Source: a virus
DNA length: 27,792 bases
Reading direction: 5' to 3' (one strand)
Virus record (IMG/VR): IMGVR_UViG_3300002835_000879
Span: 1 to 27,792 of that record
Within the stretch, counting starts at the first letter, position 1. The number at the start of each line of letters is the position of its first letter. The position numbers were made by a program, and so were the translations under genes. Below, piece after piece: positions 395-25,123 of this stretch. The notes under the pieces were generated by a model. That model worked only from the letters and a program-made list of their open reading frames with translations, was not told the origin of the DNA and searched no databases.

Positions 395-1114
395 TTAACG
401 ATTTAAATAATCGGTTAATTTTTTCATTAAATCAACTGACTTACCCATTCCAGAGTCAGAAATTTTTTTATTTTTTTCTTCATCCAGGTTTTCTTCATAC
501 ATACTTCTTTCTTCAGGGTTACCAAAAAGGTATGCTCCAGGTGTTGAAGGCGAGGATACTAGGTCAAAACAGATTAGTTCAAAATCATCTTGAACTTCAT
601 TTTGCTCACCAATTTTTTTCAATGAACCAACCCCCCTTGAAGACACACCCATAGTAACGCCTTGGCGCATAAGGTTAGCTGCGATGTCTCCTTTTGTTGA
701 AACAATACCGCTCTCATGAAAACCAGGTGACGTAAGAAGCTTTAATTTACCCATAAGGATATGTCCGTCCCACCAAATGTCTGTGATGATGTGAGCAACT
801 CTATCAAGGTCAATTAAGGATGATTCTGGGTGGTTAAGCTCAGAGGTTGACAAACCTTTTTTAATCGCAGTTTTGTATCTATCAGCCTCACGTTTTAAAA
901 TCCTCTCAGGATAGACACGACCATTACGATTTGGTACTCCATATTTTTGAAGTACGGCATAAAATTCAAATGGATTTCTGTAATCCATATCTTTTTTTTC
1001 CGAAAGGAATGCCTCGTTAAGTGGGTCTTTTGGTGAAACATACCCAGCATCCATTTCAACAAGGATACCTTTACCGCTCTCTCGGGGGCCTAGTATACGT
1101 AAATCTTTCATCAT
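395..1114 (-). CDS. 21: Prohead core protease, T4 gp21-like
   Basis: 239 residues. In T4-like phages this serine protease is built into the prohead, digests the scaffold and trims capsid and internal proteins after (L/I)-x-E sites during maturation. Family hallmarks are visible: PNRNGRVYP at residues 61-69, the catalytic-His motif ELNHPE (His95), the catalytic-Ser motif GVSSRGVGS (Ser158 or 159) and DLVSSPSTPGA near 184-194. Length is close to T4 gp21 (about 212) plus a lysine-rich tail. Two consecutive ATG codons (1114, 1111) are both possible starts. It sits downstream of portal and terminase as in T4. Its presence makes (I/L)-x-E motifs in other proteins of the window worth testing as cleavage sites. 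Confidence 0.92.
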   Translation of the reverse strand: MMKDLRILGPRESGKGILVEMDAGYVSPKDPLNEAFLSEKKDMDYRNPFEFYAVLQKYGVPNRNGRVYPERILKREADRYKTAIKKGLSTSELNHPESSLIDLDRVAHIITDIWWDGHILMGKLKLLTSPGFHESGIVSTKGDIAANLMRQGVTMGVSSRGVGSLKKIGEQNEVQDDFELICFDLVSSPSTPGAYLFGNPEERSMYEENLDEEKNKKISDSGMGKSVDLMKKLTDYLNR

Positions 1115-6239: not shown

Positions 6240-7529
6240 TTAGTCAGGACGGGAAATCCCCAAACCTGCTAAGAAATCTAATCCATCATCTTCAGAATCC
6301 TCTGATGAATCAAAACTTTCATATTCCTCCTTATTCTTTTTAGCAATTGAAATCAGTTCTTTGAACTTACTTGTTGCTTTTGAATTTTTCTCTGAGTCAT
6401 CGGAAATTGCATTTCCAACTATTTCTAGGAATTCCTCAGCAGGGAGTTTATAGAGCTCCATTTGGAACCAGTTGATAAGCCCTTTATTTTTTTCGTCAAA
6501 CATTTCGTCCGGCAAAGCAAAACGAATTTTTTCAACAACTTGCGGCCCTATTCTAAGTGACCAGGCTTCCATAGGTAAAGTATCCGTTTGACCCATAACC
6601 TTTTCTCTAGTTTCGGGGTCTTCGGGAAGACCGTATCTACCTTTAGCTTCTTCAATACCTTTAAGGATTTCGTGGCAAAGCATGGGGAACATTAACCCAT
6701 AAGCACGAATGACAGTATCAGCAGACTCTTCGCCACCTTCACCTTCACCACCATCTTCACCATCAGCATCATCTAATTCTACCATAGCAGCAACACCTTG
6801 ACCGGTATTACTCATCATATCCACCATGTCATCCATAGTAAAATACATAAAATCGTTAAGAGCCATGATTTCCAAATACATCTGATACAGACGTGGGTCA
6901 ATTTCATCCAGTTTGGCTTTAACCTCGGGCTTTTGAAATAAAAAGTGTCCTTTTTTTGCGGTTCCTTGGATAATAGCATTGATAATGTTACGCTTGTCTT
7001 TTTCTAATTCCAAAATTTCCTTAGGAGTTAGTTCGTCAATATTGAAACCAGCTTTAATCATCAACTCTTTTGCCTCTTCCTCATTTTCTTCTTTGAGTTC
7101 TTCAGCGGCCAATCTAAAATTGCTGGTATCAATCGGCTCGCGATTCAGGTAGGATTCGATAACAAACCAATCTTTAGGAATTTGAGCTTCATCAACAGAG
7201 GCATCAATCGATAATTTTTCGAGAGCGTCTTTGTGACGAGATTCAATAGAAATAATTTGTGGGATTTTTTGGTAGACCTCAGAAATTAACATTCTAGCAA
7301 CCATCGGAGAGTTAATTGCCTCTCTACCGGTCACTTGTCTTACTTTATCAACAACTTGTTTAAATCTTCGAGTCGCTAAACGCTGAATTTCTTCTGACCC
7401 TTGTTGGAAAGCAGGATTTTTAGCAAATGGATGTTCAGGGTCACGCAATTTGCGCTCCAATCCTGGGTCCATGCGTTCGGGATAATCCCCGTAATCAATC
7501 TGTTCCAGTATTTTTCTATTTTTTGCCAT
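6240..7529 (-). CDS. Unknown protein upstream of terminase
   Basis: 429 residues, not recognised. Acidic, mostly helical. Features: a basic N-terminus with RKILEQIDYGDYPERMDPGL, a helix pair to about 130, an acidic linker (residues near 250-275, many D, E, G), and an acidic C-terminal tail of S, E and D ending in DFLAGLGISRPD. No catalytic motif or membrane segment. The ATG at 7529 overlaps the end of the previous gene by 14 nt, and its stop is 6 nt from terL, so it is translationally linked to the packaging genes. A packaging or neck accessory role is possible by position; it is not obviously a gp16-type small terminase. Confidence 0.65.
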   Translation of the reverse strand: MAKNRKILEQIDYGDYPERMDPGLERKLRDPEHPFAKNPAFQQGSEEIQRLATRRFKQVVDKVRQVTGREAINSPMVARMLISEVYQKIPQIISIESRHKDALEKLSIDASVDEAQIPKDWFVIESYLNREPIDTSNFRLAAEELKEENEEEAKELMIKAGFNIDELTPKEILELEKDKRNIINAIIQGTAKKGHFLFQKPEVKAKLDEIDPRLYQMYLEIMALNDFMYFTMDDMVDMMSNTGQGVAAMVELDDADGEDGGEGEGGEESADTVIRAYGLMFPMLCHEILKGIEEAKGRYGLPEDPETREKVMGQTDTLPMEAWSLRIGPQVVEKIRFALPDEMFDEKNKGLINWFQMELYKLPAEEFLEIVGNAISDDSEKNSKATSKFKELISIAKKNKEEYESFDSSEDSEDDGLDFLAGLGISRPD

Positions 7530-8445
7530 CACGAAGAATTCCTTGAATTAATTTTAAAACATCATTTTTGGCTTTCTCGATTTCTTTCTTAGAAGCCTTA
7601 GGTGCAGGATTTGGACCTTCAAAAGGTTTTTTACCTGGGTGTGCTGGTCTAACGGATGGTTTAGTATCCGGTTTTGTTGTTGGTTTTACTGGTGCTGTTT
7701 CAGTTTCAGCCTCAGCCATAGATTTAAAAGATGTCAAACTTCCTACTGGTTTGCTCATTCTAACTGATTTACCCTTCTTAGCTTTTGGTTTGTATACAGA
7801 ACGGCTAATGACACCTTGTTCTGCAATAGTCTCAATAAATTCTCCTTTGGTCATTTTTGGTTCTAAATAATTTTCGACCAAAGATACGATTCTTTCTTCA
7901 ATAAAAAAATCCATCGGTGAATTTCCTTCATTTAAACTTTTCTTAACTGCTTTGACACATCTTTCAAACTTAGCATTCTTTTTTGGGCCAAGTTGGGCGT
8001 GACAAATAGCGTAAGGGTTATTTGTATCTTCTTCCCCCTCGGTCATATCCTCGTATTTGTCAATCTGAGCATCACTATCATCACCCATTCCATCTGGTGA
8101 CATTATTTGGTGAGGAGCTTGCGTTGTTGCTCCACCCAGAGCCGAACCCATAACATCAACGTTATCCTCTTTCATTTCGCCCTCTTGAGCTTGCATTACA
8201 ACAATGTTACCCGCACCATCAGTTTTGATTGATGCACCATCAACAACAGCGCCAGTTACACGGGCTGTAGAAGAAGGGATTGTTGTTGTTTTAACTGTCT
8301 TGGTGGTTTGTTTTACTTGTTCAGCCAAAGAAATTTTTTTGAACAAAACATCAATCTGAGTTTCATTCAACTTAGAAACTGTTTCGGGTGATAAACCCAT
8401 TTCAACTAACTGGATAATTTTATCTTTAGTTTTCATAAACGACAT
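7516..8445 (-). CDS. Unknown low-complexity structural candidate
   Basis: About 310 residues, not recognised. The first 40 residues form a helical unit (TKDKIIQLVEMGLSPETVSK). A T/V/A-rich middle follows, then a conserved-looking block near 140-175 with NPYAICHAQLGPKKNAKFERC. The C-terminal third is rich in K, P and T (AETETAPVKPTTKPDTKPSV) and ends in a basic helix. The 5' end overlaps the preceding gene; candidate starts are ATG at 8445 or 8436 (a TTG at 8454 is less likely). The 3' end overlaps the next gene by 14 nt, indicating one operon. Composition suggests a flexible virion protein, but this is inference. Confidence 0.6.
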   Translation of the reverse strand: MSFMKTKDKIIQLVEMGLSPETVSKLNETQIDVLFKKISLAEQVKQTTKTVKTTTIPSSTARVTGAVVDGASIKTDGAGNIVVMQAQEGEMKEDNVDVMGSALGGATTQAPHQIMSPDGMGDDSDAQIDKYEDMTEGEEDTNNPYAICHAQLGPKKNAKFERCVKAVKKSLNEGNSPMDFFIEERIVSLVENYLEPKMTKGEFIETIAEQGVISRSVYKPKAKKGKSVRMSKPVGSLTSFKSMAEAETETAPVKPTTKPDTKPSVRPAHPGKKPFEGPNPAPKASKKEIEKAKNDVLKLIQGILRDGKK

Positions 8446-8821
8446 TTTTTTCAAATTCGAGAATTAAATCTTTCTCGTATAATTTATCTTTGACTGAATC
8501 TTCTTCTTGTCCAAAACGGAAAACCAATCTATTGTTCTCGTCATATTCACCAACTTCCCAACCTAAAGCGACAACTCCGTCCATGGCATCGGACATACTG
8601 AAGAAGTCGGAATTTTGTGCTAATTCGAGTTTTATATTTGATTTTCTCAACACACCAACTTTTTGAATGTGTTCTAGGTCTGGGGGTGATGGGTAACCAT
8701 TTGCGGGTGCAGCTTCCCAAGAGTCACCCCAGACTTCTAGATTTTCTGAAAAAATGAATTCATAGAGATTGTCTCCCTTATAATCAGGACCTAGTCCGTT
8801 GATATAAGTTAGATACCTCAT
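8426..8821 (-). CDS. Unknown small operon protein
   Basis: 131 residues, not assigned. Begins MRYLTYINGLGPDYKGDNLYEFIFS, with a tryptophan/proline-rich block (WGDSWEAAPANGYPSPP) and then alternating strands. It resembles short conserved proteins encoded near head/neck genes of large myoviruses, but I cannot name a family. ATG at 8821 overlaps the upstream stop as ATGA, a typical translational-coupling arrangement, and the gene overlaps the following one by about 20 nt. No membrane or signal sequence. Confidence 0.65.
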   Translation of the reverse strand: MRYLTYINGLGPDYKGDNLYEFIFSENLEVWGDSWEAAPANGYPSPPDLEHIQKVGVLRKSNIKLELAQNSDFFSMSDAMDGVVALGWEVGEYDENNRLVFRFGQEEDSVKDKLYEKDLILEFEKNVVYEN

Positions 8822-10008
8822 AAAACAATACCTTCAATAGAAATTTTTACTTGTTTATTGTTATTTTCAAAAACCAAATTTTTCTTGTTTGTTCTTCCAA
8901 CGAACTCGAAACCTTTATTTTCTTCTAAAAACTTCTTGCTTGCTAATTCTTGTTCGATTGTTTCTGACAAATTTTCAATTTTGTTTAGCATCGAACTAAA
9001 TTTTGTCTTGGTAGAACCTTGTCTTTCTTCAAACAATTTCTTTGCATGCTCAACCTCTGAAGAACTTACTTCGAAATACTTGCTCAACACTTTGTCAATT
9101 TTGCTTTCTTTCATTGACATGCCGAAATTGTAATCTTCAGAACCCATGCCTTCCATAGGTTCTTCTGGAGAAATTTCAGCATCCATTTCAAAATCCATTT
9201 CAGCACCTGGTTCTTCCATTCCCATGTCCATATCCATTTCAGAGTCAGCTTCAACGTCTTCGAACTTAGCCATGATGTCTTCCATGTCTTCTGGTTCGAG
9301 TTTAGTCAAATCAACCGCAGATAAAACCATGTTGATTACATATTTGATATCCTCAGAAGTCATTCCATCCTGAGATTCAAGTGCTCTCATTTTTTGAGTG
9401 AGCTTGCCTGTCAATTTTTGGATAAGTCTGAAAGAAACTTTCTCTTCCATATCTTGCTCCATACCAGCAGGCTCTTCCATAGAAGTGTCTACGTCCATAT
9501 CAACATCCATTCCTAAGTCCATACCCATGTCACCACCAGCGTCATCAGTAGCATCAACAGAAGGTAATTCTGGTTCTGGAAGTGGAGCTGGTTCAGCTGG
9601 AACAGGTGGAATCTCAGCAACTGGTGCTGGTGGGGTTGGAGTTTTTAAAACAAATTTCTTTTGTTCACCAAATAATTTAACCTCTTCATCTTGTCCATTC
9701 ATCTCATTGTTTTCCTTGATAATCAAGTTGAGTTTTCTTAGAGCTTGGGCATAAGATGAGTGATATTTTCTATTTTTCATAGGCTCCATGTAATCCAAAG
9801 AAGATTCGTTGATACCTTTCTTGATGATGTATCCTTGCTTCTCTTTTACAATGTGGTAATCCATTCCATCAGCTAAGTTGATGGAATATTCGGATGCACC
9901 TTCATTGACGCTTGTTGAAGTCGTCTTGTAGGTGGCAATCTCCATAATTCTTTTTAATTTGTCGACACCTTCAAGTTTTTCGCTGCCGATTGGTTTTAAT
10001 TTTGCCAT
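8818..10008 (-). CDS. Acidic Met/Asp-repeat protein, structural candidate
   Basis: 396 residues, not recognised. Residues about 1-110 are an ordered N-terminal unit. A proline-rich linker (VAEIPPVPAEPAPLPEPE) leads to a very acidic M/D-rich repeat near 155-185 (MGMDLGMDVDMDVDTS) and a second near 255-290. Between them is a helical unit, RLIQKLTGKLTQKMRALES. The C-terminus (about 305-396) is helical then beta. Such acidic, flexible, helix-containing proteins are typical of scaffold or prohead-core components, but no homology can be claimed. ATG at 10008, no Shine-Dalgarno; its stop overlaps the next start as ATGA. Confidence 0.6.
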   Translation of the reverse strand: MAKLKPIGSEKLEGVDKLKRIMEIATYKTTSTSVNEGASEYSINLADGMDYHIVKEKQGYIIKKGINESSLDYMEPMKNRKYHSSYAQALRKLNLIIKENNEMNGQDEEVKLFGEQKKFVLKTPTPPAPVAEIPPVPAEPAPLPEPELPSVDATDDAGGDMGMDLGMDVDMDVDTSMEEPAGMEQDMEEKVSFRLIQKLTGKLTQKMRALESQDGMTSEDIKYVINMVLSAVDLTKLEPEDMEDIMAKFEDVEADSEMDMDMGMEEPGAEMDFEMDAEISPEEPMEGMGSEDYNFGMSMKESKIDKVLSKYFEVSSSEVEHAKKLFEERQGSTKTKFSSMLNKIENLSETIEQELASKKFLEENKGFEFVGRTNKKNLVFENNNKQVKISIEGIVL

Positions 10009-10028: not shown

Positions 10029-10907
10029 TTAATTATTAAGGCCGTGCATACCCCCTAGTTCAACAGCACTCAAGTCAACTACAGTACCTTGTCTATTACC
10101 ATCTGGGCCGATAGGTACCCAATCAACTGGGTGAGGATATTCTGCGGTGTAGGTTACACCACTACAAGTTATGCAAGCTTCGGCTTCATACTGAACATTA
10201 ACATCGAACACTCCAAATGGAGTTGCTGACGGAGTAGGGGTCATTGTTTGCGTTTGAGTCTGCGTAGGGGTAGCAGTATTTGTTGTGGTTTGTGTTGGCG
10301 TTGCAGTTTTTGTTGGTGTTTGTGTGGGGGTTGCTGTATTAGTTGTTGTTTGTGTTGGTGTTTGTGTTTGAGTATTAGTTGGAGTCAAAGTTGGTGATGC
10401 TGTAATACTAGGGGTTGGAGTGTTAGATGCGGTAATACTCGGGGTTGGAGTGTTTGTTGGTGTTTGAGTTTGAGTATTGGTTGGTGTTGCAGTGTTAGTT
10501 GTTGTTGGTGTTTGAGTTTGAGTTGCTGTCTGACTTGGTGTCTGTGTATTAGTATTTGTTGGGGTTTGCGTTTGAGTTGGTGTTGGTGTTTGTGTCGCAG
10601 TCCTTGTAGGTGTTTGAGTATTCGTTGGTGTATTGGATGGGGTTTGAGTAGGGGTAGAAGTCGGAGATTCTGTTGGGGTTGGTGTTAAGTCTCCAAGACA
10701 TTCAACGCAGTTAATCCAAGGACCATTAAATACCGTTACAACTGTGGCTAAAGGGGTTTCATCAATTGGTGCAAGAGTCCAACAACCTATGTTTGTAGAC
10801 CCTACTAATAATTCATAAATTCTACCCGAAACAATTGCAGCTTCGGTAGCAAAAAATCTTGACGGTTGCCCAATACAAGAAGTTCCAACAAAATAATTCA
10901 ACGCCAT
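10029..10907 (-). CDS. Threonine/proline-repeat protein
   Basis: 292 residues. An N-terminal unit of about 75 residues contains several Cys ([21 protein letters not shown]). A long T/P-rich repeat (about 75-225; units such as TPTQTPTNT) and a C-terminal unit of about 65 residues with CITC and [13 protein letters not shown] follow. The layout of small globular caps joined by a stalk-like T/P linker suggests a surface-exposed virion protein, perhaps a head decoration or fibre. The function is not known. It is the first gene of the leftward head block and has a TATTTATA motif 13 nt upstream. Confidence 0.65.
10230..10690 (-). repeat. Degenerate T/P-codon tandem repeat
   Basis: Coding-strand units of ACN/CCN/CAA codons repeat about every 12-30 nt through the middle of the T/P-rich gene. 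Third positions vary, so selection acts on the protein. Such repeats expand and contract readily and may differ among relatives. Confidence 0.8.
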
Positions 10908-11991: not shown

Positions 11992-12376
11992 TTATTTTGT
12001 TTTTTTTACGCAGTTAGGGTATCGTTTACCAAACATAGTTTTCATTCCTTTCTGTGTGTAGCCTTTCCAGCATCTTTCTGTTATTTCAGCTTCACTCATT
12101 TCTTGTTGATTACCAAGATGGGAAAATACTTTTCTAATTTTTTTTTGGTAAGGTATCAATATTAATAACCTTCGCTTTGATTGTTTCCAATATACCAAAT
12201 TTTTCAGCCGTCATCGAAATTAGTTTTGATTTCTTTTGAACTAATGTTTCGGATACCATATCCAATACTCTGTTGAATTCTTTGTCTATTACATCAAAGT
12301 CCACACGTCTTCTAATACTTAAAGGAATTTTAATTTCCTCCCTTAATATTCTTCGTATAGTTTCTTTTTGGCTCAT
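11992..12376 (-). pseudogene. Frameshifted leader/PNCVK-tail protein (chimera)
   Basis: Reads MSQKETIRRILREE and then SIRRRVDFDVIDKEF, like its upstream neighbour, through KAKVINIDTLPKKN and a stop at 12134-12136. If one base is removed from the A9 run on the coding strand (plus-strand T9, about 12138-12146), the frame continues KIRKVFSHLGNQQEM to the tail ERCWKGYTQKGMKTMFGKRY, then PNCVKKTK, ending at 11992. The intact copy at 12704-13603 has A8 here. The gene is therefore a fusion of a small-paralogue N-terminus to a copied C-terminal tail, broken by one base. Transcriptional slippage on A9 could restore the full product, or the break may be real decay or a sequencing error. The start at 12376 is 1 nt after the preceding stop. 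Confidence 0.75.
12096..12190. repeat. Direct repeat copy A (about 95 nt)
   Basis: Near-identical to 12808-12901: the two differ by one A/G change and one extra T in a homopolymer. It covers the IKAKVINIDTLPKKIRKVF-coding segment. Identity ends sharply at 12190, marking a recombination junction with the small-paralogue gene. Confidence 0.9.
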
Positions 12377-12377
12377 A

Positions 12378-12704
12378 TTACACTTCACTCAATAGATTAT
12401 ATCTATGTTTTATTTGTTTCTCATAATAATCTTTTAAACTATTAAATACATCATCATACCATTGTGAATCTTCATACGTTGTACTATGTATGTCATAATG
12501 AATTCCATCAATCGTCATTGATATTACAATGTGTGTAAACATATCTAATGTCATCTCGGGGTCTCTAAAAAACATATCAGAAGTGTGCTCCAATGACTCA
12601 TTAAATTCTTCATCTAGTTTATTAATTTCAACCCTACGTAAAATTAATGGAATTAATCTAGTTTCCTCTTTTAATATTCTTCGTATGGTTTTTTTTAGGT
12701 TCAT
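12378..12704 (-). CDS. Small leader-helix protein, paralogue
   Basis: 108 residues, function unknown. The N-terminus MNLKKTIRRILKEE is an amphipathic basic helix with an I-L-K-E site. The next segment, LIPLILRRVEINKLDEEF, is clearly paralogous to SIRRRVDFDVIDKEF in the downstream gene and weakly to IFFRRRVTPPEI in the protein at 14039-14371. The rest is acidic alpha/beta with DIHSTTYEDSQWYDD. Start and upstream stop overlap as TAATG, so translation is coupled. The leader resembles capsid-targeting peptides processed by gp21-type proteases (inference). Confidence 0.7.
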   Translation of the reverse strand: MNLKKTIRRILKEETRLIPLILRRVEINKLDEEFNESLEHTSDMFFRDPEMTLDMFTHIVISMTIDGIHYDIHSTTYEDSQWYDDVFNSLKDYYEKQIKHRYNLLSEV

Positions 12705-13603
12705 TACTTTGTCTTCTTAACACAGTTAGGGTAACGTTTTCCAAACATTGTCTTCATACCTTTTTGAGTATAACCTTTCCAACATCTTTCAGTTAACTCA
12801 CCTTCTTTCATTTCTTGTTGATTACCAAGATGGGAAAATACTTTTCTGATTTTTTTTGGTAAGGTATCAATATTAATAACCTTCGCTTTGATTGTTTCCA
12901 ACCCTTTTCTTGCAGCTTTTTGAGCTCTATGGTGTCCATCAATAATTGATATAAATTCTCCGTTAGATGTAACAAAAATCAAAATGGGGTATTGTAAATC
13001 GGCTTTCTCAATTTTTTTAATTTCCTCGGGGTTATCATCCCAAGATAATAAATAAGGTTTTAATTCCTCAACAGATATTTTCTGAACGGGGATTTCTTCT
13101 GTGGCATTTAATAAATCAATAAGAGTAATCTTATCACCTTTTTCATTTTGCCAAGATGTGTCGTGTAGTCCCTCTTTTACTTCTTCGGATTCGTCATCAA
13201 TCAACACACTCATAGGGTCTATACCAAGTTTTTCCAAACTCCATAGTATTTGGTTGTACTTCCCATCATATAATTTATCAACAAAATTATCTTTCCAATT
13301 TTGGGTTGATGCTTTTTTAGTAATGGCTTTATGTACCCAAGAATCCTCATTCGATTTATTTATATTCATCAAAGTAATTAGGTGTGAATAAGGTTCGTCT
13401 AACCATTCGTTATATGTTTTTGATTTCGGGTCACCATCAATTGCCGGTGTAACAAAAACAACTCCAAGGTCAACCAACTTATCAACATCGAATGGTAGTC
13501 TTTCAGGAACGGTATTTCTACCTTTTTCATAATCATAAACCTTTTTAGTGGGTTTTATTCCCATCACCTCTTGTATTCTCAATATTTGTTCTTGTAGGTT
13601 CAT
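12704..13603 (-). CDS. ParB-like-domain protein with PNCVK tail
   Basis: 299 residues. The start is taken at MNLQEQILRIQEVMGI (13603), 1 nt after the upstream stop; an ATG at 13627 would overlap the neighbour by 23 nt. Three parts: a leader helix shared with the next two genes; a long middle of unknown fold; and a ParB/sulfiredoxin-like domain near 175-245 (VQKISVEELKPYL, then YPILIFVTSNGEFISIIDGH, then HRAQKAARKG). The C-terminal tail is ERCWKGYTQKGMKTMFGKRY plus PNCVKKTK, a basic motif found on many phage proteins of unknown role. ParB-like domains bind or hydrolyse nucleotides or cut DNA; the activity here is unknown. Confidence 0.75.
   Translation of the reverse strand: MNLQEQILRIQEVMGIKPTKKVYDYEKGRNTVPERLPFDVDKLVDLGVVFVTPAIDGDPKSKTYNEWLDEPYSHLITLMNINKSNEDSWVHKAITKKASTQNWKDNFVDKLYDGKYNQILWSLEKLGIDPMSVLIDDESEEVKEGLHDTSWQNEKGDKITLIDLLNATEEIPVQKISVEELKPYLLSWDDNPEEIKKIEKADLQYPILIFVTSNGEFISIIDGHHRAQKAARKGLETIKAKVINIDTLPKKIRKVFSHLGNQQEMKEGELTERCWKGYTQKGMKTMFGKRYPNCVKKTK
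12808..12901. repeat. Direct repeat copy B (about 94 nt)
   Basis: The partner of 12096-12190 inside the intact ParB-like gene, and probably the source copy because it is in frame with the domain it encodes. Confidence 0.9.
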
Positions 13604-13604
13604 T

Positions 13605-14042
13605 TTACTTTTTATTTTTACCAACAAAACTTATTATGGATTTTAACCCCAATTCTCTTAAAGCATTTGCTCTATGTGCTCCATCAATTATGTAATAATA
13701 ACCATATTGTTTTTTAGTTAAAACTATGGGTGGATATGAATTTAATTTTTTAAACAACTCAACATACTCCTCCACATCATCTTCATCAATTTCGAACTCA
13801 TCCATTTCTATTTGTTCAATTGGTATTTCCTTTACAATATAAAAGGGATATTTCTCAATTCGTTCTCCCAAATTACCTTCCCAAAAATCTTCTTCTCTTT
13901 TATGGTGTAATTTTTGAACGTAGGTGTATATGTCAGATTCTTCATATGTATCACCAATATTAATATCATTATTAGAGTACATACCTTCAGATATTACACC
14001 CATCACCTCTTTGATTCTCAATATCTGTTCTTGTAGTTTCAT
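13605..14042 (-). CDS. Small ParB-like-domain protein
   Basis: 145 residues. The leader MKLQEQILRIKEVMGVISEG is nearly the same as in the neighbouring genes and contains I-K-E and I-S-E sites. The C-terminal half is a compact ParB/sulfiredoxin-like domain: VKEIPIEQIEMDEFEI, then YPPIVLTKKQYGYYYIIDGA followed by HRANALRELG. The IIDGxHRA core matches that of the next gene, so the two are paralogues at both ends. ATG overlaps the upstream stop as ATGA and the stop is 1 nt before the next start. Function unknown. Confidence 0.75.
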   Translation of the reverse strand: MKLQEQILRIKEVMGVISEGMYSNNDINIGDTYEESDIYTYVQKLHHKREEDFWEGNLGERIEKYPFYIVKEIPIEQIEMDEFEIDEDDVEEYVELFKKLNSYPPIVLTKKQYGYYYIIDGAHRANALRELGLKSIISFVGKNKK

Positions 14043-14371
14043 AATTGTCTGATTGGATGTTTATTATACAATTTTTTTATTTCATCTTCGTAAATTTCTG
14101 ATACGAGATTAATATAGGCTATTTCTTCTTTTTCAGGTAATTCTTCCCAACCCAACTTAAATTTTATCCATAAAACGTGTTCCAACGAAGTCAACACCAA
14201 ATTATATTTATAGTCCGCGTAGTTATCTGTTTCGTCAAAAGTTTTATTATCGAACACATCAAAATAGCTGGCTATCTCGGGAGGAGTTACTCTTCTTCTA
14301 AAAAAAATATTTGTTTCATTAATAATTCCCATCATTGATTGAATTCTTGAGATTTGTTCCTGCAGGTTCAT
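14039..14371 (-). CDS. Small leader-helix protein
   Basis: 110 residues. The start is taken at MNLQEQISRIQSMMGIINET (14371), which has a TATTTATA motif exactly 4 nt upstream. The remainder has IFFRRRVTPPEI like the small paralogues further down, then an alpha/beta stretch with LGWEELPEKEEIAYINLV. Function unknown. It is the first gene of the run 14371 to 11748, in which each start abuts or overlaps the previous stop. Confidence 0.7.
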   Translation of the reverse strand: MNLQEQISRIQSMMGIINETNIFFRRRVTPPEIASYFDVFDNKTFDETDNYADYKYNLVLTSLEHVLWIKFKLGWEELPEKEEIAYINLVSEIYEDEIKKLYNKHPIRQL

Positions 14372-14375
14372 AACA

Positions 14376-14383
14376 TATAAATA
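14376..14383 (-). promoter_or_regulatory. TATTTATA motif, 4 nt before ATG
   Basis: Minus strand TATTTATA, TGTT, ATG at 14371. It lies directly after the terminator of the upstream gene (14385-14410), which supports a new transcription start for the run of leader-helix genes. Confidence 0.55.
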
Positions 14384-14384
14384 C

Positions 14385-14410
14385 AAAAAACCCCCAGCTT
14401 TCGCCAGGGG
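14385..14410 (-). terminator. Terminator after the UVR-motif gene
   Basis: Minus strand CCCCTGGC, GAAA loop, GCTGGGGG, then TTTTTT. The 8-bp stem has two G-U pairs. It begins 24 nt past the stop at 14435. Confidence 0.8.
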
Positions 14411-14434
14411 TAAAAAAAATCATGGTATTATTAG

Positions 14435-14863
14435 TTATTTGAGTTTTTTCAACTCGTCTCTAATCTCAATTGCTTTTTCGAAATCTTGTTTATTGATTGC
14501 TTCTTTGAGGTCGTTTTCCAAAGCAGCAATTTTGTCTTTGTTCTCCTCCAAGGATTTAATGCGGTCACGCAGTTCCACAGCCATTTCAAACTCTTGTTCA
14601 TCGATTGCCTTCAGCAATAGTTTTTTCAGCTTGTTGATGTCGGAGTTGTTCTGCGACGGGTGCTGTCCATTGTTGTTTCTAAAGATGGTGGTAAACTGAA
14701 TCATTCCATCCTCGGAGGTAAACGTTTCTTTTGACCAGTTGCCGTTATCGTCCTTGCCGGTTTCGGTGTTGGTCCTTCCCCGCATAACAAACGGGTCAAA
14801 TTCGTTGTTAAATAATGAATTCACTAAGGAATCCAAATCTTCAAATAGTCTTTTCTTTCTCAT
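14435..14863 (-). CDS. UVR-motif protein, McsA-like candidate Clp partner
   Basis: 142 residues from ATG at 14863 (MRKKRLFEDLDSLVNSLFNN); the open frame upstream to 15043 looks like leader. The C-terminal half has two UVR-type helical hairpins: LKKLLLKAIDEQEFEMAVEL then RDRIKSLEE, and LKEAINKQDFEKAIEIRDEL. UVR motifs occur in UvrB, UvrC, the ClpC middle domain and McsA-type adaptors. The N-terminal half is unassigned and lacks McsA zinc-binding CxxC pairs. It diverges from the ClpC-like gene 192 nt away, whose own middle domain has the matching NYEEAAGLRDKE helix. A role as adaptor or regulator of that unfoldase is likely but inferred. Confidence 0.75.
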   Translation of the reverse strand: MRKKRLFEDLDSLVNSLFNNEFDPFVMRGRTNTETGKDDNGNWSKETFTSEDGMIQFTTIFRNNNGQHPSQNNSDINKLKKLLLKAIDEQEFEMAVELRDRIKSLEENKDKIAALENDLKEAINKQDFEKAIEIRDELKKLK

Positions 14864-15001
14864 TTTGTATGTTTTTTGGTTTGCTCTATCATACGCAATC
14901 AAAATGCCAAAAGCAATATCCTGACAATTTGTCACATAATGTTTGATAAATAACCTACCAGGCTGACAAGTTGGCAATAAATAAAAATTTTCTGCCATGG
15001 A

Positions 15002-15033
15002 TTTGGAAATGTCCGATTTATGTTTAACCTTTG
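15002..15033 (+). promoter_or_regulatory. Near-consensus Bacteroidota promoter for the Clp gene
   Basis: TTTG at 15002-15005, 19 nt, then TAACCTTTG at 15025-15033, one base longer than the TAnnTTTG consensus. Transcription would start about 15040, leaving a leader of roughly 15 nt to ATG 15055. Confidence 0.45.
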
Positions 15034-15054
15034 TACAAATCAAATTATAAAATC

Positions 15055-17055
15055 ATGAGCGAAACTATGGACGACGACGACAAGGCCCTTGGTAGGAAGA
15101 AACCCTCTTCCGATTCTAGAACTCCTGTTCTGGATAATTTCTCCCGAGACCTTAATAAACTTGCCGAGCAAGGAAAGCTCGACCCAGTAATTGGTCGGGA
15201 AAAAGAAATCGTGCGCATCGCACAGATTCTCTCTCGTAGAAAGAAGAACAACCCAATCATCTTGGGTGAACCAGGTTCGGGTAAGACCGCAATCGTGGAA
15301 GGTCTCGCTACCTTGATTGTTAATGGAAGCTGTCCCAAGAACCTCCTGGACAAACGCATCGTCACCCTTGACCTCACAGCAGTTGTTGCGGGTACAAAAT
15401 ACCGAGGTCAGTTCGAGGAGCGTCTAAAGGTTATCTTGGAGGAACTTTCTCAGAACCCCAACATCATTATCTTCATTGATGAAATCCATACCTTGATTGG
15501 TTCGGGTAACTCCTCCGGGAGCTTGGATGGTTCCAATATCTTCAAGCCCGCTTTGGCTAGAGGAGAAATCCAATGCATTGGTGCTACCACCTTGGATGAA
15601 TACCGCAAGTCATTTGAAAAAGACGGAGCTTTGGAGCGTCGCTTCCAGAAGGTGATGGTTGACCCCTCCACCGTTGCTGAGACCATTCAAATCCTCACCA
15701 ACATCCGTGACCGCTACGAGGCATTCCACAAGGTATCTTATTCGGATGAAATCATCGAATTGTGCGTGAAGCTCGCTGACCGTTACATCACCGACCGAGA
15801 ATTCCCAGACAAGGCATTTGATATCCTTGATGAAGTGGGGGCCCGCAGTCAGACCGAGCAGAAGATTCCCGAGGTAATCGAGGACCTCAAGGCAAAAGCT
15901 GCGGAAATCAAGGTCCAGAAGATGGATGTTGTTAAAAAGCAGAACTACGAGGAAGCTGCAGGCCTTCGTGATAAGGAGCGCAAGATTCTCGCCAAACTTG
16001 AAGCTGAGAAGAAGAAGTTTGAAGAAGAATCTGCAACCACTCGCATTCCAATTTCAGTTGAGCAAGTATATGATGTGGTATCCAACATGACCAAAATCCC
16101 TGTGAGCAAAATGTCAATTGATGACACCAATGCTCTAATTAACATGGACAAAGTTCTTATGGGCAAGGTCATCGGTCAAGATGAAGCGGTATCCAAGATT
16201 GTTAAATCAATCCGTAGAAATCGCATCGGCATCAAGGACCCCAACCGTCCCATCGGCTCGTTTATCTTCCTTGGCTCAACGGGTGTTGGTAAAACTCACC
16301 TGGCAAAGCAAATTGCCAAGGAGATGTTTGGTTCAGAAAGCTCCCTTATCCGTGTGGACATGAGTGAATACCAGGAAAAACATACCGTTTCTCGATTGGT
16401 GGGAGCGCCCCCAGGATACGTGGGATATGAAGAAGGTGGACAGCTGACCGAGCAGGTCAAGAACAAGCCTTATGCTGTAATCCTTTTCGATGAGGTTGAA
16501 AAAGCACACAAGGATATCTTTTCGATTTTGCTTCAGATTCTCGATGACGGTCACGCAACCGATTCATTGGGACGCAAAATCAACTTCAAGAACACCTTGA
16601 TTATTATGACAACAAACTTGGGAGTTAAGAAATTGATGGATTTCGGCTCCGGGATTGGTTTTTCTTCCAATAAGTATTCAAACGAGGAAGCGAAAAAACA
16701 AATTCTGATGAAGGAAATGAAGAACTTCTTCTCCCCTGAGTTCATTAACCGCATCGACGATACGATTGTCTTCCAGACCCTCTCGGAAGATAACATCGAG
16801 AAAATCGTCGGTTTGGAACTCGAGAAGCTCTCCAAGCGATTGGGTGAGATGAAATATAAGATTGTAATGGATAAAACCGTTCCCGAATACATCGCAAAAG
16901 TTGGATTCGACCAGGTTTACGGAGCACGCCCAATCAAACGTGCCATCCAGGACAAAATCGAGGACTTCCTATCTGAGCTTATCTTAATTGGCAAAATCAA
17001 AGAGAACCGAAAATACACCATCAAGGTGGTGGATGAACAGGTGAAAATCTCTTAA
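15055..17055 (+). CDS. clpC: ClpC-like AAA+ unfoldase lacking the N domain
   Basis: 666 residues; host ClpC is about 810-850 because it has an N-terminal adaptor domain, absent here. NBD1 starts near residue 25: Walker A GEPGSGKT (about 75-82), Walker B IIIFIDEIHT (about 143-152). The middle region holds a ClpC/UVR-type hairpin, NYEEAAGLRDKE (about 300). NBD2: Walker A GSTGVGKT, pore loop GYVGYEEGG, Walker B VILFDEVEKAH, sensor residues in IIMTTNLG, and GARPIKRAI near the end. FGSGIGFSS (about 540) places an IGF tripeptide where Clp unfoldases contact ClpP. It should unfold proteins and feed host ClpP. Codon use is richer in C/G-ending codons than neighbours, suggesting transfer or strong expression. 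Start ATG 15055 fits the promoter; 15067 is an alternative. Confidence 0.93.
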   Translation: MSETMDDDDKALGRKKPSSDSRTPVLDNFSRDLNKLAEQGKLDPVIGREKEIVRIAQILSRRKKNNPIILGEPGSGKTAIVEGLATLIVNGSCPKNLLDKRIVTLDLTAVVAGTKYRGQFEERLKVILEELSQNPNIIIFIDEIHTLIGSGNSSGSLDGSNIFKPALARGEIQCIGATTLDEYRKSFEKDGALERRFQKVMVDPSTVAETIQILTNIRDRYEAFHKVSYSDEIIELCVKLADRYITDREFPDKAFDILDEVGARSQTEQKIPEVIEDLKAKAAEIKVQKMDVVKKQNYEEAAGLRDKERKILAKLEAEKKKFEEESATTRIPISVEQVYDVVSNMTKIPVSKMSIDDTNALINMDKVLMGKVIGQDEAVSKIVKSIRRNRIGIKDPNRPIGSFIFLGSTGVGKTHLAKQIAKEMFGSESSLIRVDMSEYQEKHTVSRLVGAPPGYVGYEEGGQLTEQVKNKPYAVILFDEVEKAHKDIFSILLQILDDGHATDSLGRKINFKNTLIIMTTNLGVKKLMDFGSGIGFSSNKYSNEEAKKQILMKEMKNFFSPEFINRIDDTIVFQTLSEDNIEKIVGLELEKLSKRLGEMKYKIVMDKTVPEYIAKVGFDQVYGARPIKRAIQDKIEDFLSELILIGKIKENRKYTIKVVDEQVKIS

Positions 17056-17058
17056 TCA

Positions 17059-17088
17059 AAAAGGGGGGGACGAAAGTCCCCCTTTTTA
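17059..17088 (+). terminator. Terminator after the Clp gene
   Basis: GGGGGAC, GAAA loop, GTCCCCC followed by TTTTTATT. It starts within 10 nt of the stop codon. Confidence 0.9.
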
Positions 17089-17098
17089 TTTACCCTTA

Positions 17099-17106
17099 TA
17101 TTTATC
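17099..17106 (+). promoter_or_regulatory. TATTTATC motif upstream of leader-helix gene
   Basis: TATTTATC, 14 nt before ATG 17121 and just past the Clp terminator. Part of the recurrent candidate late-promoter set. Confidence 0.4.
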
Positions 17107-17120
17107 ATAAAAAACTAGCC

Positions 17121-17459
17121 ATGGGTAAAGTTGTAAAACTAACAGAAGGGGACCTGGAGAATATCATTCGCAAAATCATTAGCGAACAAGAAACAATCAA
17201 TCTCCCATCAAAAGGTCTCAAACCAGTTATTGAGCCACAAAAAATAGCTCAAATCAAATCACAAGCGGATGCTCTAGCAAAAGATACTGAAATGATTAAG
17301 CAAGTTCTTGAAACTCTTAAAAGATTTGACCCAGAAGCTTACTACATGCTCACCCGTGGAGATGACCCAATCAAAAAAACCGTCCTAGGAGACCTTATCA
17401 CCTACGGAAGTATAATCGGTATGATTTACGGAATCGTACAAGAATTAAGAGGACAATAA
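17121..17459 (+). CDS. Small leader-helix protein with hydrophobic C-terminus
   Basis: 112 residues, function unknown. The N-terminus MGKVVKLTEGDLENIIRKII then SEQ is close to that of the next gene (KVIRLSESDL...IEKVIQEQ), an N-terminal motif I have seen on many unrelated phage proteins. It contains an I-I-S-E site. The middle is helical (QIKSQADALAKDTEMIKQVL). The C-terminus, VLGDLITYGSIIGMIYGIV, is hydrophobic and may be a membrane or packing helix. It is followed after 3 nt by the next gene, so the two are co-transcribed. Confidence 0.7.
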   Translation: MGKVVKLTEGDLENIIRKIISEQETINLPSKGLKPVIEPQKIAQIKSQADALAKDTEMIKQVLETLKRFDPEAYYMLTRGDDPIKKTVLGDLITYGSIIGMIYGIVQELRGQ

Positions 17460-17462
17460 TTT

Positions 17463-17942
17463 ATGAAAAAAGTAATCAGACTATCTGAATCAGACCTTGT
17501 GAACCTTATCGAAAAAGTAATCCAAGAACAAGCAACTCCCACAAAAACCCCCCAGGAGTGCGCAATGCTTAGAAAGAAAAGCGAAAAGAATAAAATGCGT
17601 GCCCAAAGAGTAATCTCATTTGCTCCAAAACAACTCCGCGATATTATCTCAAAAGCATTCGACGCTGGAGTAAAACAAGGACCCGAAGCATTCAAAAGCG
17701 CACTTCCAATGGAAGGAAGACAAGCTCTTGAGAAAAAACTCAAGTCAATTAAAAAACCAAAAACAGATTCTGAACTCGAACAGCTAATCTCAGCAGCTCA
17801 ATCAGAAGCATCAAACATCCAAGAACAAGTAAAATCTTGGCTAGGTCTGTTTATCAATATCGGCATGCTTTTAATGGTGCTTATGGTATTGATTATCATC
17901 ATCCGTGGAGCAGATGGTGACATCGCTGGATACTGCGGATAA
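17463..17942 (+). CDS. Leader-helix protein with C-terminal membrane segment
   Basis: 159 residues, function unknown. The leader MKKVIRLSESDLVNLIEKVI then QEQ matches the preceding gene. The central region is a basic helical domain with KQLRDIISKAFDAGVKQG and LEKKLKSIKKPKTDSELEQL. Near the C-terminus, WLGLFINIGMLLMVLMVLII is a strong transmembrane helix before a short RGADGDIAGYCG tail. A protein carried in the virion and inserted into the host membrane on infection is one possibility; a lysis or superinfection role is another. Neither is shown. Confidence 0.7.
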   Translation: MKKVIRLSESDLVNLIEKVIQEQATPTKTPQECAMLRKKSEKNKMRAQRVISFAPKQLRDIISKAFDAGVKQGPEAFKSALPMEGRQALEKKLKSIKKPKTDSELEQLISAAQSEASNIQEQVKSWLGLFINIGMLLMVLMVLIIIIRGADGDIAGYCG

Positions 17943-17965
17943 AAAATACAAATACACTGTCTGAG

Positions 17966-17998
17966 CCCTCCCTGTAAAAAGGGGGGGTTTATTTTTTA
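17966..17998 (+). terminator. Terminator after the two leader-helix genes
   Basis: CCCTCCCT, GTAAAA loop, AGGGGGGG (one G-U pair), then TTTATTTTTT. Confidence 0.85.
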
Positions 17999-18006
17999 AG
18001 CCAATA

Positions 18007-18014
18007 TATTTATC
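18007..18014 (+). promoter_or_regulatory. TATTTATC motif, 4 nt before ATG
   Basis: TATTTATC, AAAG, ATG at 18019, directly after the terminator at 17966-17998. Same 4-nt spacing as at 11727, 14371, 22750 and 24072. Confidence 0.55.
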
Positions 18015-18018
18015 AAAG

Positions 18019-18711
18019 ATGAAAGACCTCATTCTTAAAGTTCTTCGTGAGGAAGTAAGCAACGGAAAAGTCAAGTGCGACAACTGCGGTTGGTCGTGGA
18101 GTTTAAAAGAGGGTGGTCATGACCCTTATATTTGTCATCAGTGTAATCACAACAACGAACCAAAAAAACTCAAAGAAGATTTTAGGTTAGATTCAGGGTT
18201 GATGGATGATAATTTATACCTCACTTTTAAAAGGCTTTTAAAAAGGAGGGGGTTTACTCATCAAAATGTTTTTTCAATAGCTGAAGTTCTTGGAATTAGG
18301 CAAGTATCCAAATTTGTACAAAAATATTTGAACGAGGAGGGTATCCCGGGAATCTATAATAAAGAAAAAAATATTTTATTGGTTTGCAACAAATGTGGTT
18401 ACAGTGACTTAAAATTTTATTTTACAATTGTAGATATTGATGTCCCTAGTACCAACTTCGAGTATAACAATCAAATAGATTTATATGTTTACGTTTCAGA
18501 CCGTGGCTCTGGTGAATTTGAGAAATTTGATGGGTACACATACAAAGGCTCATTTAACCCAATAGTTTATTACGAAACTGAGGAGAATTTATATGACGCA
18601 CTTTTCGGCGCTGTAAACGATGCGATAACTTATCACTTAGACGACGAGTTAGAAAAGTATGATATTAAAGTCCGCATTGATGGGTTAGATTTTACCCGTG
18701 TGAAACCTTAA
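18019..18711 (+). CDS. Zinc-ribbon protein with leader helix
   Basis: 230 residues. The leader MKDLILKVLREE contains a V-L-R-E site. A four-Cys zinc ribbon follows at about 19-50: KCDNCGWSWSLKEGGHDPYI then CHQC. A second CxxC pair (LLVCNKCGYSDLKFYF, near 120-135) has no obvious partner. The rest is alpha/beta, with many aromatic and acidic residues, and is not recognised. The CDNCGWSW...CHQC block recurs in phage proteins of unknown role, often right after a leader helix. It ends 1 nt from the convergent peptidase gene with no terminator in between. Confidence 0.7.
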   Translation: MKDLILKVLREEVSNGKVKCDNCGWSWSLKEGGHDPYICHQCNHNNEPKKLKEDFRLDSGLMDDNLYLTFKRLLKRRGFTHQNVFSIAEVLGIRQVSKFVQKYLNEEGIPGIYNKEKNILLVCNKCGYSDLKFYFTIVDIDVPSTNFEYNNQIDLYVYVSDRGSGEFEKFDGYTYKGSFNPIVYYETEENLYDALFGAVNDAITYHLDDELEKYDIKVRIDGLDFTRVKP

Positions 18712-24071: not shown

Positions 24072-24653
24072 ATGAAGCCAGAGTTATTAAAAGAGATTGC
24101 CGCAATCAAAAAACAAATATCTTTATTGGAAGATTTTGTTATGCCCCAGGACGTTAGTTATTCGAATATCACGTTTACGGATAAAGCCAAAACTGATAAG
24201 GTGAATAGAGCTTTATTGGATGATGTAAATCTCGCAGCTAAAAGAGCTGGTGTGAGTGTTCGTATTGGAACTATTACAACCGGTCATCCGAGTATGATAA
24301 GTGGTAAAAGTTCAAGGCACCCAGATGGAATTGCTGTTGATGTTGATATGATTGATGGATTGGCTGTAAGCAAAAAAATTGAGGATACTGTTGAGAAATT
24401 CAACTATGAGCTCGAAAAGCTGGGTTATAAAAGAAACGTTGAAAGGGGAACTGATAAAGCATTTTTGACTTTCGGATTCAAAGACCATGACAACCATGTC
24501 CATGTATCAAACACAACTGACGTTGAAGCTGAAGAGGGTCAAAAAACTTCAACCACCACAACATCAACTGAAACTGATACCGATACACCACGGTTTAATC
24601 TGGAAAAAATCGTTCAAACCGTAAAAGATTTTAAATCCGGTATTGGATTTTAA
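24072..24653 (+). CDS. M15-type peptidase, possible endolysin or virion lysin
   Basis: 193 residues. A leader-like helix MKPELLKEIAAIKKQISLLE precedes a domain with zinc-ligand motifs of M15 D,D/L,D-peptidases: SSRHPDGIAVDVDM (about 78-91; SxHxxGxAxD) and HDNHVHVS (about 138-145; HxH). Such enzymes cut peptide cross-links of peptidoglycan. The C-terminal tail is T/S/E-rich followed by a helix (LEKIVQTVKDFKSG). No signal peptide. Lysis at the end of infection or local wall digestion at entry are both possible; the leader helix with L-L-K-E favours a virion-packaged protein if the targeting idea is right. It converges with a small membrane-protein gene. Confidence 0.72.
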   Translation: MKPELLKEIAAIKKQISLLEDFVMPQDVSYSNITFTDKAKTDKVNRALLDDVNLAAKRAGVSVRIGTITTGHPSMISGKSSRHPDGIAVDVDMIDGLAVSKKIEDTVEKFNYELEKLGYKRNVERGTDKAFLTFGFKDHDNHVHVSNTTDVEAEEGQKTSTTTTSTETDTDTPRFNLEKIVQTVKDFKSGIGF

Positions 24654-24839: not shown

Positions 24840-25123
24840 TTGAAATCGGAAAATGTTAATCCCCACATAAGAGTTATCCAGGCCATTTCAATCTCTGCAG
24901 ATTTTTTGTTTAATTTCATGTTTTTCCGTAGATATTCAATACCCCAAGTTTTCCATTGGTCATTCTGCTCAACTGTCATAGTCCAATCCTTGTACCAGGC
25001 ATCGGTTCTACCTTTTACATCTTTGTAACTTACATCATGACCGGCAATCTCAAACATCTTATTGATGAGAGTTTCAACGGTCTTTTGTGCCTTTTCATCT
25101 CTGGTTAATCGTTTCCCTGGCAT
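24836..25123 (-). CDS. Unknown small soluble protein
   Basis: 95 residues, basic helical N-terminus (MPGKRLTRDEKAQKTVETLI), then WYKDWTMTVEQNDQWKTWGI and a C-terminal helix SAEIEMAWITLMWGLTF. The Trp-rich centre resembles short conserved proteins of large phages, for which I know no function. ATG overlaps the upstream HAD stop as TAATG and its stop overlaps the next start as ATGA, so the three genes are translationally linked. Confidence 0.7.
   Translation of the reverse strand: MPGKRLTRDEKAQKTVETLINKMFEIAGHDVSYKDVKGRTDAWYKDWTMTVEQNDQWKTWGIEYLRKNMKLNKKSAEIEMAWITLMWGLTFSDFK

Follow-up and report, generated by a model that had tools for sequence, protein, structure and literature searches.

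Interchangeable N-terminal leaders ending in a prohead-protease-like site on many unrelated proteins of T4-type phages: candidate capsid-targeting signals

In a 27.8-kb fragment of a T4-type phage (the whole 27,792-nucleotide record IMGVR_UViG_3300002835_000879, hereafter the window), our study identified nine proteins with leader-like helical starts which, together with their counterparts in related phages, are probably capsid-targeting leaders cut by the S77 prohead protease, functionally like the leaders of T4 internal proteins. These proteins lie in two clusters, five on the minus strand (12134-14371) and three on the plus strand (17121-18711), with a further one at 24072. Our comparisons strongly support that the leaders end in a prohead-protease site: conservation stops at a Glu, leaders are exchanged at the same Glu, the capsid protein has a matching site, and the leaders co-occur with the capsid protein Gp23 and the S77 protease. 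An earlier note on the window had read the helices as candidate capsid-targeting signals with protease sites, and it is the protease-site part of that reading that the comparison has strengthened. Loading of the leader proteins into the head is the best explanation of this pattern, and their ejection with the DNA may be expected by analogy with T4.

The leaders are helical, about 13-25 residues long, and fall into several families. Leader A reads MNLQEQISRIQSMMGxINE, leader B reads MKKIVRLTESDLTRIVKRVIxE and has relatives that start MKYIITESQL, and leader C reads MxLxxxIRRILREE. The protease and the leader-bearing proteins of the window are given below; a slash marks the end of the leader.

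395 to 1114, minus strand: prohead core serine protease, gp21/S77 type (Pfam PF03420 Peptidase_S77 and phrog_207)
12134 to 12376, minus strand: leader MSQKETIRRILRE/EIKIPLSIRRRV (12338-12376, type C) and 'RRRV' body
12378 to 12704, minus strand: leader MNLKKTIRRILKE/ETRLIPLILRRV (12666-12704, type C) and 'RRRV' body
12704 to 13603, minus strand: ParB/Srx-domain protein with leader-A start MNLQEQILRIQEVMG and C-terminal tag LTERCWKGYTQKGMKTMFGKRYPNC
13605 to 14042, minus strand: ParB-like protein with leader MKLQEQILRIKEVMGVISE/GMYS (13986-14042, type A)
14039 to 14371, minus strand: 'RRRV' body with leader MNLQEQISRIQSMMGIINE/TNIFFRRRV (14315-14371, type A)
17121 to 17459, plus strand: protein with leader MGKVVKLTEGDLENIIRKIISE/QETIN (17121-17186, type B)
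17463 to 17942, plus strand: protein with leader MKKVIRLSESDLVNLIEKVIQE/QATP (17463-17528, type B) and, close to its C-terminal end, a hydrophobic segment
18019 to 18711, plus strand: zinc-ribbon protein with leader MKDLILKVLRE/EVSNGKVKCDNCGWSW (18019-18051, type C)
24072 to 24653, plus strand: protein with probable leader MKPELLKEIAAIKKQISLLE/DFVMP (24072-24131)

Three of these starts were corrected from the listed open reading frames, namely 12134-12376 (ATG at 12376), 12704-13603, and 14039-14371 (ATG five codons inside the listed frame). All the N-termini quoted in the earlier note are present in the sequence, and the gp21-type protease it reported is borne out by matches to Pfam PF03420 (E-value 3e-25, 89.2 bits, curated cut-off 27) and to the phrog_207 head maturation protease profile (2e-43). 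The window also encodes a portal protein and a terminase of T4 type. The protein at 24072, tentatively included there, probably belongs to the set, as its relatives carry other leaders that end in (I/L)-x-E; a resemblance to M15 peptidases received no support from a sequence search of the PDB, and the protein is left unnamed. The description of the set as proteins of different fold fits the window itself only in part, where 12134, 12378 and 14039 have homologous 'RRRV' bodies and 12704 and 13605 have the ParB/Srx domain in common; it applies across relatives.

It is important to note that the presence of (I/L/V)-x-E by about residue 25, true of each protein as the earlier note stated, is weak evidence by itself: such a motif is present in 36-43% of the proteins of these and related phages, and we dropped it as a sole criterion. 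Counted over whole genomes of leader phages and of the cultured Flavobacterium phage immuto, hydrophobic-hydrophobic-x-E is enriched at residues 8-40, where a fraction of 0.26-0.31 of the proteins have it; the fraction is 0.12-0.21 at deeper positions or in shuffled sequences. Unlike the hydrophobic-x-E motif alone, the leader sequences exceed chance. In the viral_contigs set, at least 120 stretches matched a degenerate DNA pattern covering the opening twelve residues of leader B, whereas a permuted pattern with the same codons reordered and equal degeneracy gave none there; the leader-A pattern gave 69. Up to 18 leader-B genes are found in one 304-kb contig. Across 84,980 genomes of bacteria and archaea, four stretches matched leader B. 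Three come from a single metagenome-assembled genome with phage-type contigs and S77, the only one with the leader in frame, and the fourth, in contig L563 of a Bacteroidota metagenome-assembled genome, is an antisense chance match. Searching annotated phages by tblastn with the bare leaders gave no matches, the queries being too short for this to indicate absence.

The leaders are N-terminal, stand before many different bodies and end sharply at a Glu. Counting profile matches at E<=0.001, 224 of 234 for leader B and 109 of 112 for leader A are N-terminal. The 354 leader proteins fall into 211 body clusters without detectable mutual similarity, 156 of them with a single member; the search of relatives for leaders attached to unrelated domains, proposed in the earlier note, found them behind leaders A and B. 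The search pattern selected only the N-terminal half of these two leaders, and outside it leader B is conserved as R-I-V-K-R-V-I-x-E. With one protein taken per cluster, its columns show V or I at P4 in 88%, I, L or V at P3 in 99% and E at P1 in 93%, and the information content is 3.8 bits at the Glu, 1.35 at P1' (Q in 37%) and below 0.7 thereafter. Leader A ends M-M-G-V-I-N-E, with a similar drop in conservation after the Glu.

The same body can stand behind different leaders, and the exchange point is the Glu. The leaders MKDLILKVLRE, MNLQQTIRRILRE, MNLQEQIQRIQEMMNLVTE and MKILISERQKNLIME all occur in front of the zinc-ribbon body of 18019, its homologues carrying leaders of types A, C and D, and the 'RRRV' body of the window follows leader A in 14039 and leader C in 12378 and 12134. 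Our swap test covered 21 body clusters whose leaders cannot be aligned and asked for a start of homology within four residues of the E-site. Homology starts there in both partners in 51% of cases, compared with 5% at random body positions; for partners that had not been chosen for a leader, the values are 56% against 25%. Leaders also occur in tandem, with three E-sites ahead of the body at 95462 in G028, and between two cargo domains (G028 97421, G042 53511, L312 3869, L322 2336, L337 3386 and L340 3155), an arrangement in which the same S77 protease could separate the two domains. Fusions with an internal leader and E-site, resembling small polyproteins, extend over L385 2421-3713 (G028 97421-98713), L407 15511-16218 (G042 53511-54218) and L312 3869-4513.

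The capsid protein has a site of the same kind. The window stops short of the capsid gene, but in 47 relatives residues 57-61 of Gp23 are invariably L-I-N-E-A. This site lies upstream of the mature domain, some 15 residues ahead of the conserved VFPIVRRVF region, at the point where T4 gp23 has its propeptide removed. This LINE site in the propeptide region and the leader ends VINE, VIKE and ILRE read alike. Among 23 long contigs found only through their leaders, 18 have both S77 and Gp23 and five have neither, which fits fragments without head genes; in a comparison set of 17 long contigs, picked with an unrelated pattern, 5 have S77. In immuto, the corresponding capsid site reads QIVSE/A. The leader A and B profiles have no matches in this phage, which carries a leader-A-like MKKQILSEQFKRMQFLAGIITE/S as well as, in common with its relatives, another abundant leader on unrelated proteins, FDLKKFLVENKLTxNSRxLxE. 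The FDLKKFLVENKLT leaders of immuto have a terminal Glu, and the genes at 25061 and 111675 have a putative site GIITE/S. In viral contigs, the FDLKKFL leader stands on 36 unrelated bodies, 73 of 74 occurrences are N-terminal, and S77 is present in all eight long contigs that have it, immuto included.

Two further genes of the window, both in the head-module region, have N-terminal segments with ends of the same kind.

6240 to 7532, minus strand: conserved head-module gene adjoining the terminase gene, with orthologues that carry several different leaders
8818 to 10008, minus strand: conserved protein whose N-terminal segment ends SVNE/G (9901-10008)

Every leader of the 6240-7532 orthologues ends in hydrophobic-x-E directly before the body, the N-termini in different phages being MAKKIKE/QIDYG, MVDKDLERLIRKIIKE/APIDYG, MGNLTEKELDRIVNKIINE/APIDYD and MKKEQLVKRLVSRINE/APIGYE. 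The site of the 8818-10008 protein reads K-I-N-E/T in relative G001. A neighbour of the capsid gene (L118, at G001 97574, 227 residues) and its relatives have a very short N-terminal leader, RINE/A or LNE/T, and also a C-terminal helix LIKKILRE, so that they are possibly cut at both ends. The gene at 10029-10907 encodes a protein with a long repetitive stretch rich in T, P and Q (TPTQTPTNT), probably a tail or surface protein. A ClpA/ClpB-like double-AAA ATPase gene (15031-17055) lies between the two leader-gene clusters, and such a gene also adjoins the head module in relatives G001 and G022.

Predicted structures are available for two of the minus-strand proteins. The AlphaFold 2 model of the 14039 protein has a confident helical body (mean predicted local distance difference test score above 90 over residues 31-70) and a leader helix of low confidence, with the minimum at residues 14-20, the junction; a fold search with this 'RRRV' body found no meaningful counterpart in the PDB. 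In the model of the 12704 protein, confidence is confined to the ParB/Srx domain, for which Noc, ParB and sulfiredoxin are matches. The leader of 12704 lacks the terminal Glu site and has an inner I-Q-E only. ART-PolyVal gave a weak match in one of 148 leader proteins and was not located in 41 records, and we make no claim of an Alt-like link. The window encodes at 11992-12145 and 12704-12857 a C-terminal tag of 28 residues, LTE-KCWKGYTQKGMKTMFGKRYPNCVKK, which is almost invariant on 24 proteins of the sampled contigs; all or almost all of these proteins begin with a leader as well, and the (L/I)-T-E before the tag is a possible second protease site. Behind the 'RRRV' body at 11992-12376 stands a second copy of the 3' part of the ParB-like gene, forming the 3' end of 12134-12376. 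The frame shifts where nine A stand in a row, with a stop immediately after, and the next frame encodes the C-terminal tag; this change of frame is either a real frameshift or an assembly error.

Our proposed mechanism takes T4 as its model, for which only a handful of packed and injected proteins are known; those whose function is known blunt host defences or reprogram the host RNA polymerase. T4 gp23 loses a 65-residue propeptide, gp21 cuts after L/I-x-E, and the leaders of the internal proteins (IP) suffice for packaging (PMC9026906). The T4-type internal proteins, of which at least ten are known, have only the N-terminal leader in common, and Ip1, Ip2 and Ip3 are injected anti-restriction proteins (PMC12373910). 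By this analogy, the helix would bind the prohead core during head assembly, and the protein would be built into the head; S77, the proposed cutter being the protease at 395-1114, would then cut after the Glu at capsid maturation and free the protein inside the head. At infection, some leader proteins would pass into the host together with the DNA and have an early role there, like the T4 internal proteins and Alt.

The capsid-targeting sequences of T4 IPI, IPII, IPIII and Alt are likewise short N-terminal leaders with an (L/I)-x-E end on otherwise unrelated proteins, encoded by variable accessory genes in a genome that also has an S77 protease and a Gp23 with a matching site. The resemblance proposed here is one of function. 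The leader families differ, and there are hundreds of unrelated bodies here against about ten reported T-even internal proteins. In addition, our phages have many leaders per genome, several families that swap on one body, and some internal-leader fusions. In phiKZ and SPN3US, many head or ejected proteins also have N-terminal propeptides cut after Glu by a gp21-related protease (PMC9026906, PMC10052503), but those proteases prefer S/A-x-E or A-x-E, whereas here P3 is I, L or V, both in nearly all of leader B and in the capsid LINE. Polyvalent proteins and other phage-injected effectors, too, are believed to arrive together with the phage DNA and to take part in host conflicts (PMC5512222); they are long multidomain proteins, in contrast to the mostly single unknown domains with a removable leader described here.

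Some explanations other than capsid targeting for delivery have to be considered. The leaders could be cut by S77 and take their proteins into the prohead as structural or core components that, whether they remain in the head or leave it as it matures, never reach the host. This is in keeping with the several leader genes that are conserved head-module genes and neighbours of the capsid gene or the terminase gene, among them the YMFFSNL gene and the APIDY/QIDYG gene. We regard this explanation as unlikely, though the foremost of the alternatives, given that most bodies are sporadic accessory proteins in variable clusters, and that zinc-ribbon, ParB/Srx, nucleotidase and abhydrolase-like domains suit host takeover better than scaffolding. 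It is more doubtful still that the leaders are uncut docking peptides whose target is some other assembly of the phage or the host, for example the ClpA-type ATPase of 15031-17055, the replisome or the membrane. Their amphipathic helices and the position of the ClpA-like gene between the two clusters would agree with docking, which leaves unexplained why a terminal Glu site is common to the leaders and the capsid protein, why swap points fall there, and why the leaders co-occur with Gp23 and S77.

A purely DNA-level origin, in which the shared N-termini are recombination joints or translation-start enhancers without protein function, appears very improbable. The genes are clearly mosaic, with repeated DNA segments at 13555-13603, 13994-14042 and 14323-14371 and the duplicated 3' part, and codon identity at identical residues of leader A is somewhat above expectation (0.77 vs 0.61). 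For leader B, however, it is 0.55, compared with 0.50 from codon usage alone, and differences are about two times more frequent at third than at first and second positions; synonymous sites thus vary nearly freely, which indicates that selection acts on the peptide.

Several observations weigh against our reading of the leaders as cleaved capsid-targeting signals. In about 35% of leader-A bodies, and in some leaders of the MKYIITESQL type, no terminal Glu stands where it would be expected, and therefore not all leaders need be cleaved. Hydrophobic-x-Glu is a common composition of helix ends, and the sampled phages are related to one another. Pfam names almost none of the leader bodies, and those it does name (peptidoglycan-binding, LysM, a nucleotidase) are no proof of ejected proteins. 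Virion proteomics for these phages was not found in the literature searched.

Capsid-targeting leaders on internal head proteins are, as a kind, known from T4; to our knowledge, there is no earlier description of the leader families reported here, of their number per genome, of swapping between families or of internal leaders, and searching the texts of papers for the leader sequences gave no match. On evenly balanced grounds, we propose that aquatic T4-type phages, many of them with large genomes, run a general protein-delivery platform in which a few interchangeable capsid-address peptides serve a large, fast-changing and mostly unknown early-acting cargo, including internal-leader fusions that the capsid protease could separate inside the head. 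The presence of leaders in the cultured phage immuto makes direct testing possible. If these leaders have the meaning that they have in T4, a single sequence search would divide the unknown genes in a large uncultured phage group into injected and non-injected ones, and would provide hundreds of candidate anti-host proteins acting in the first minute of infection, as well as portable address tags with which proteins could be loaded into phage heads.

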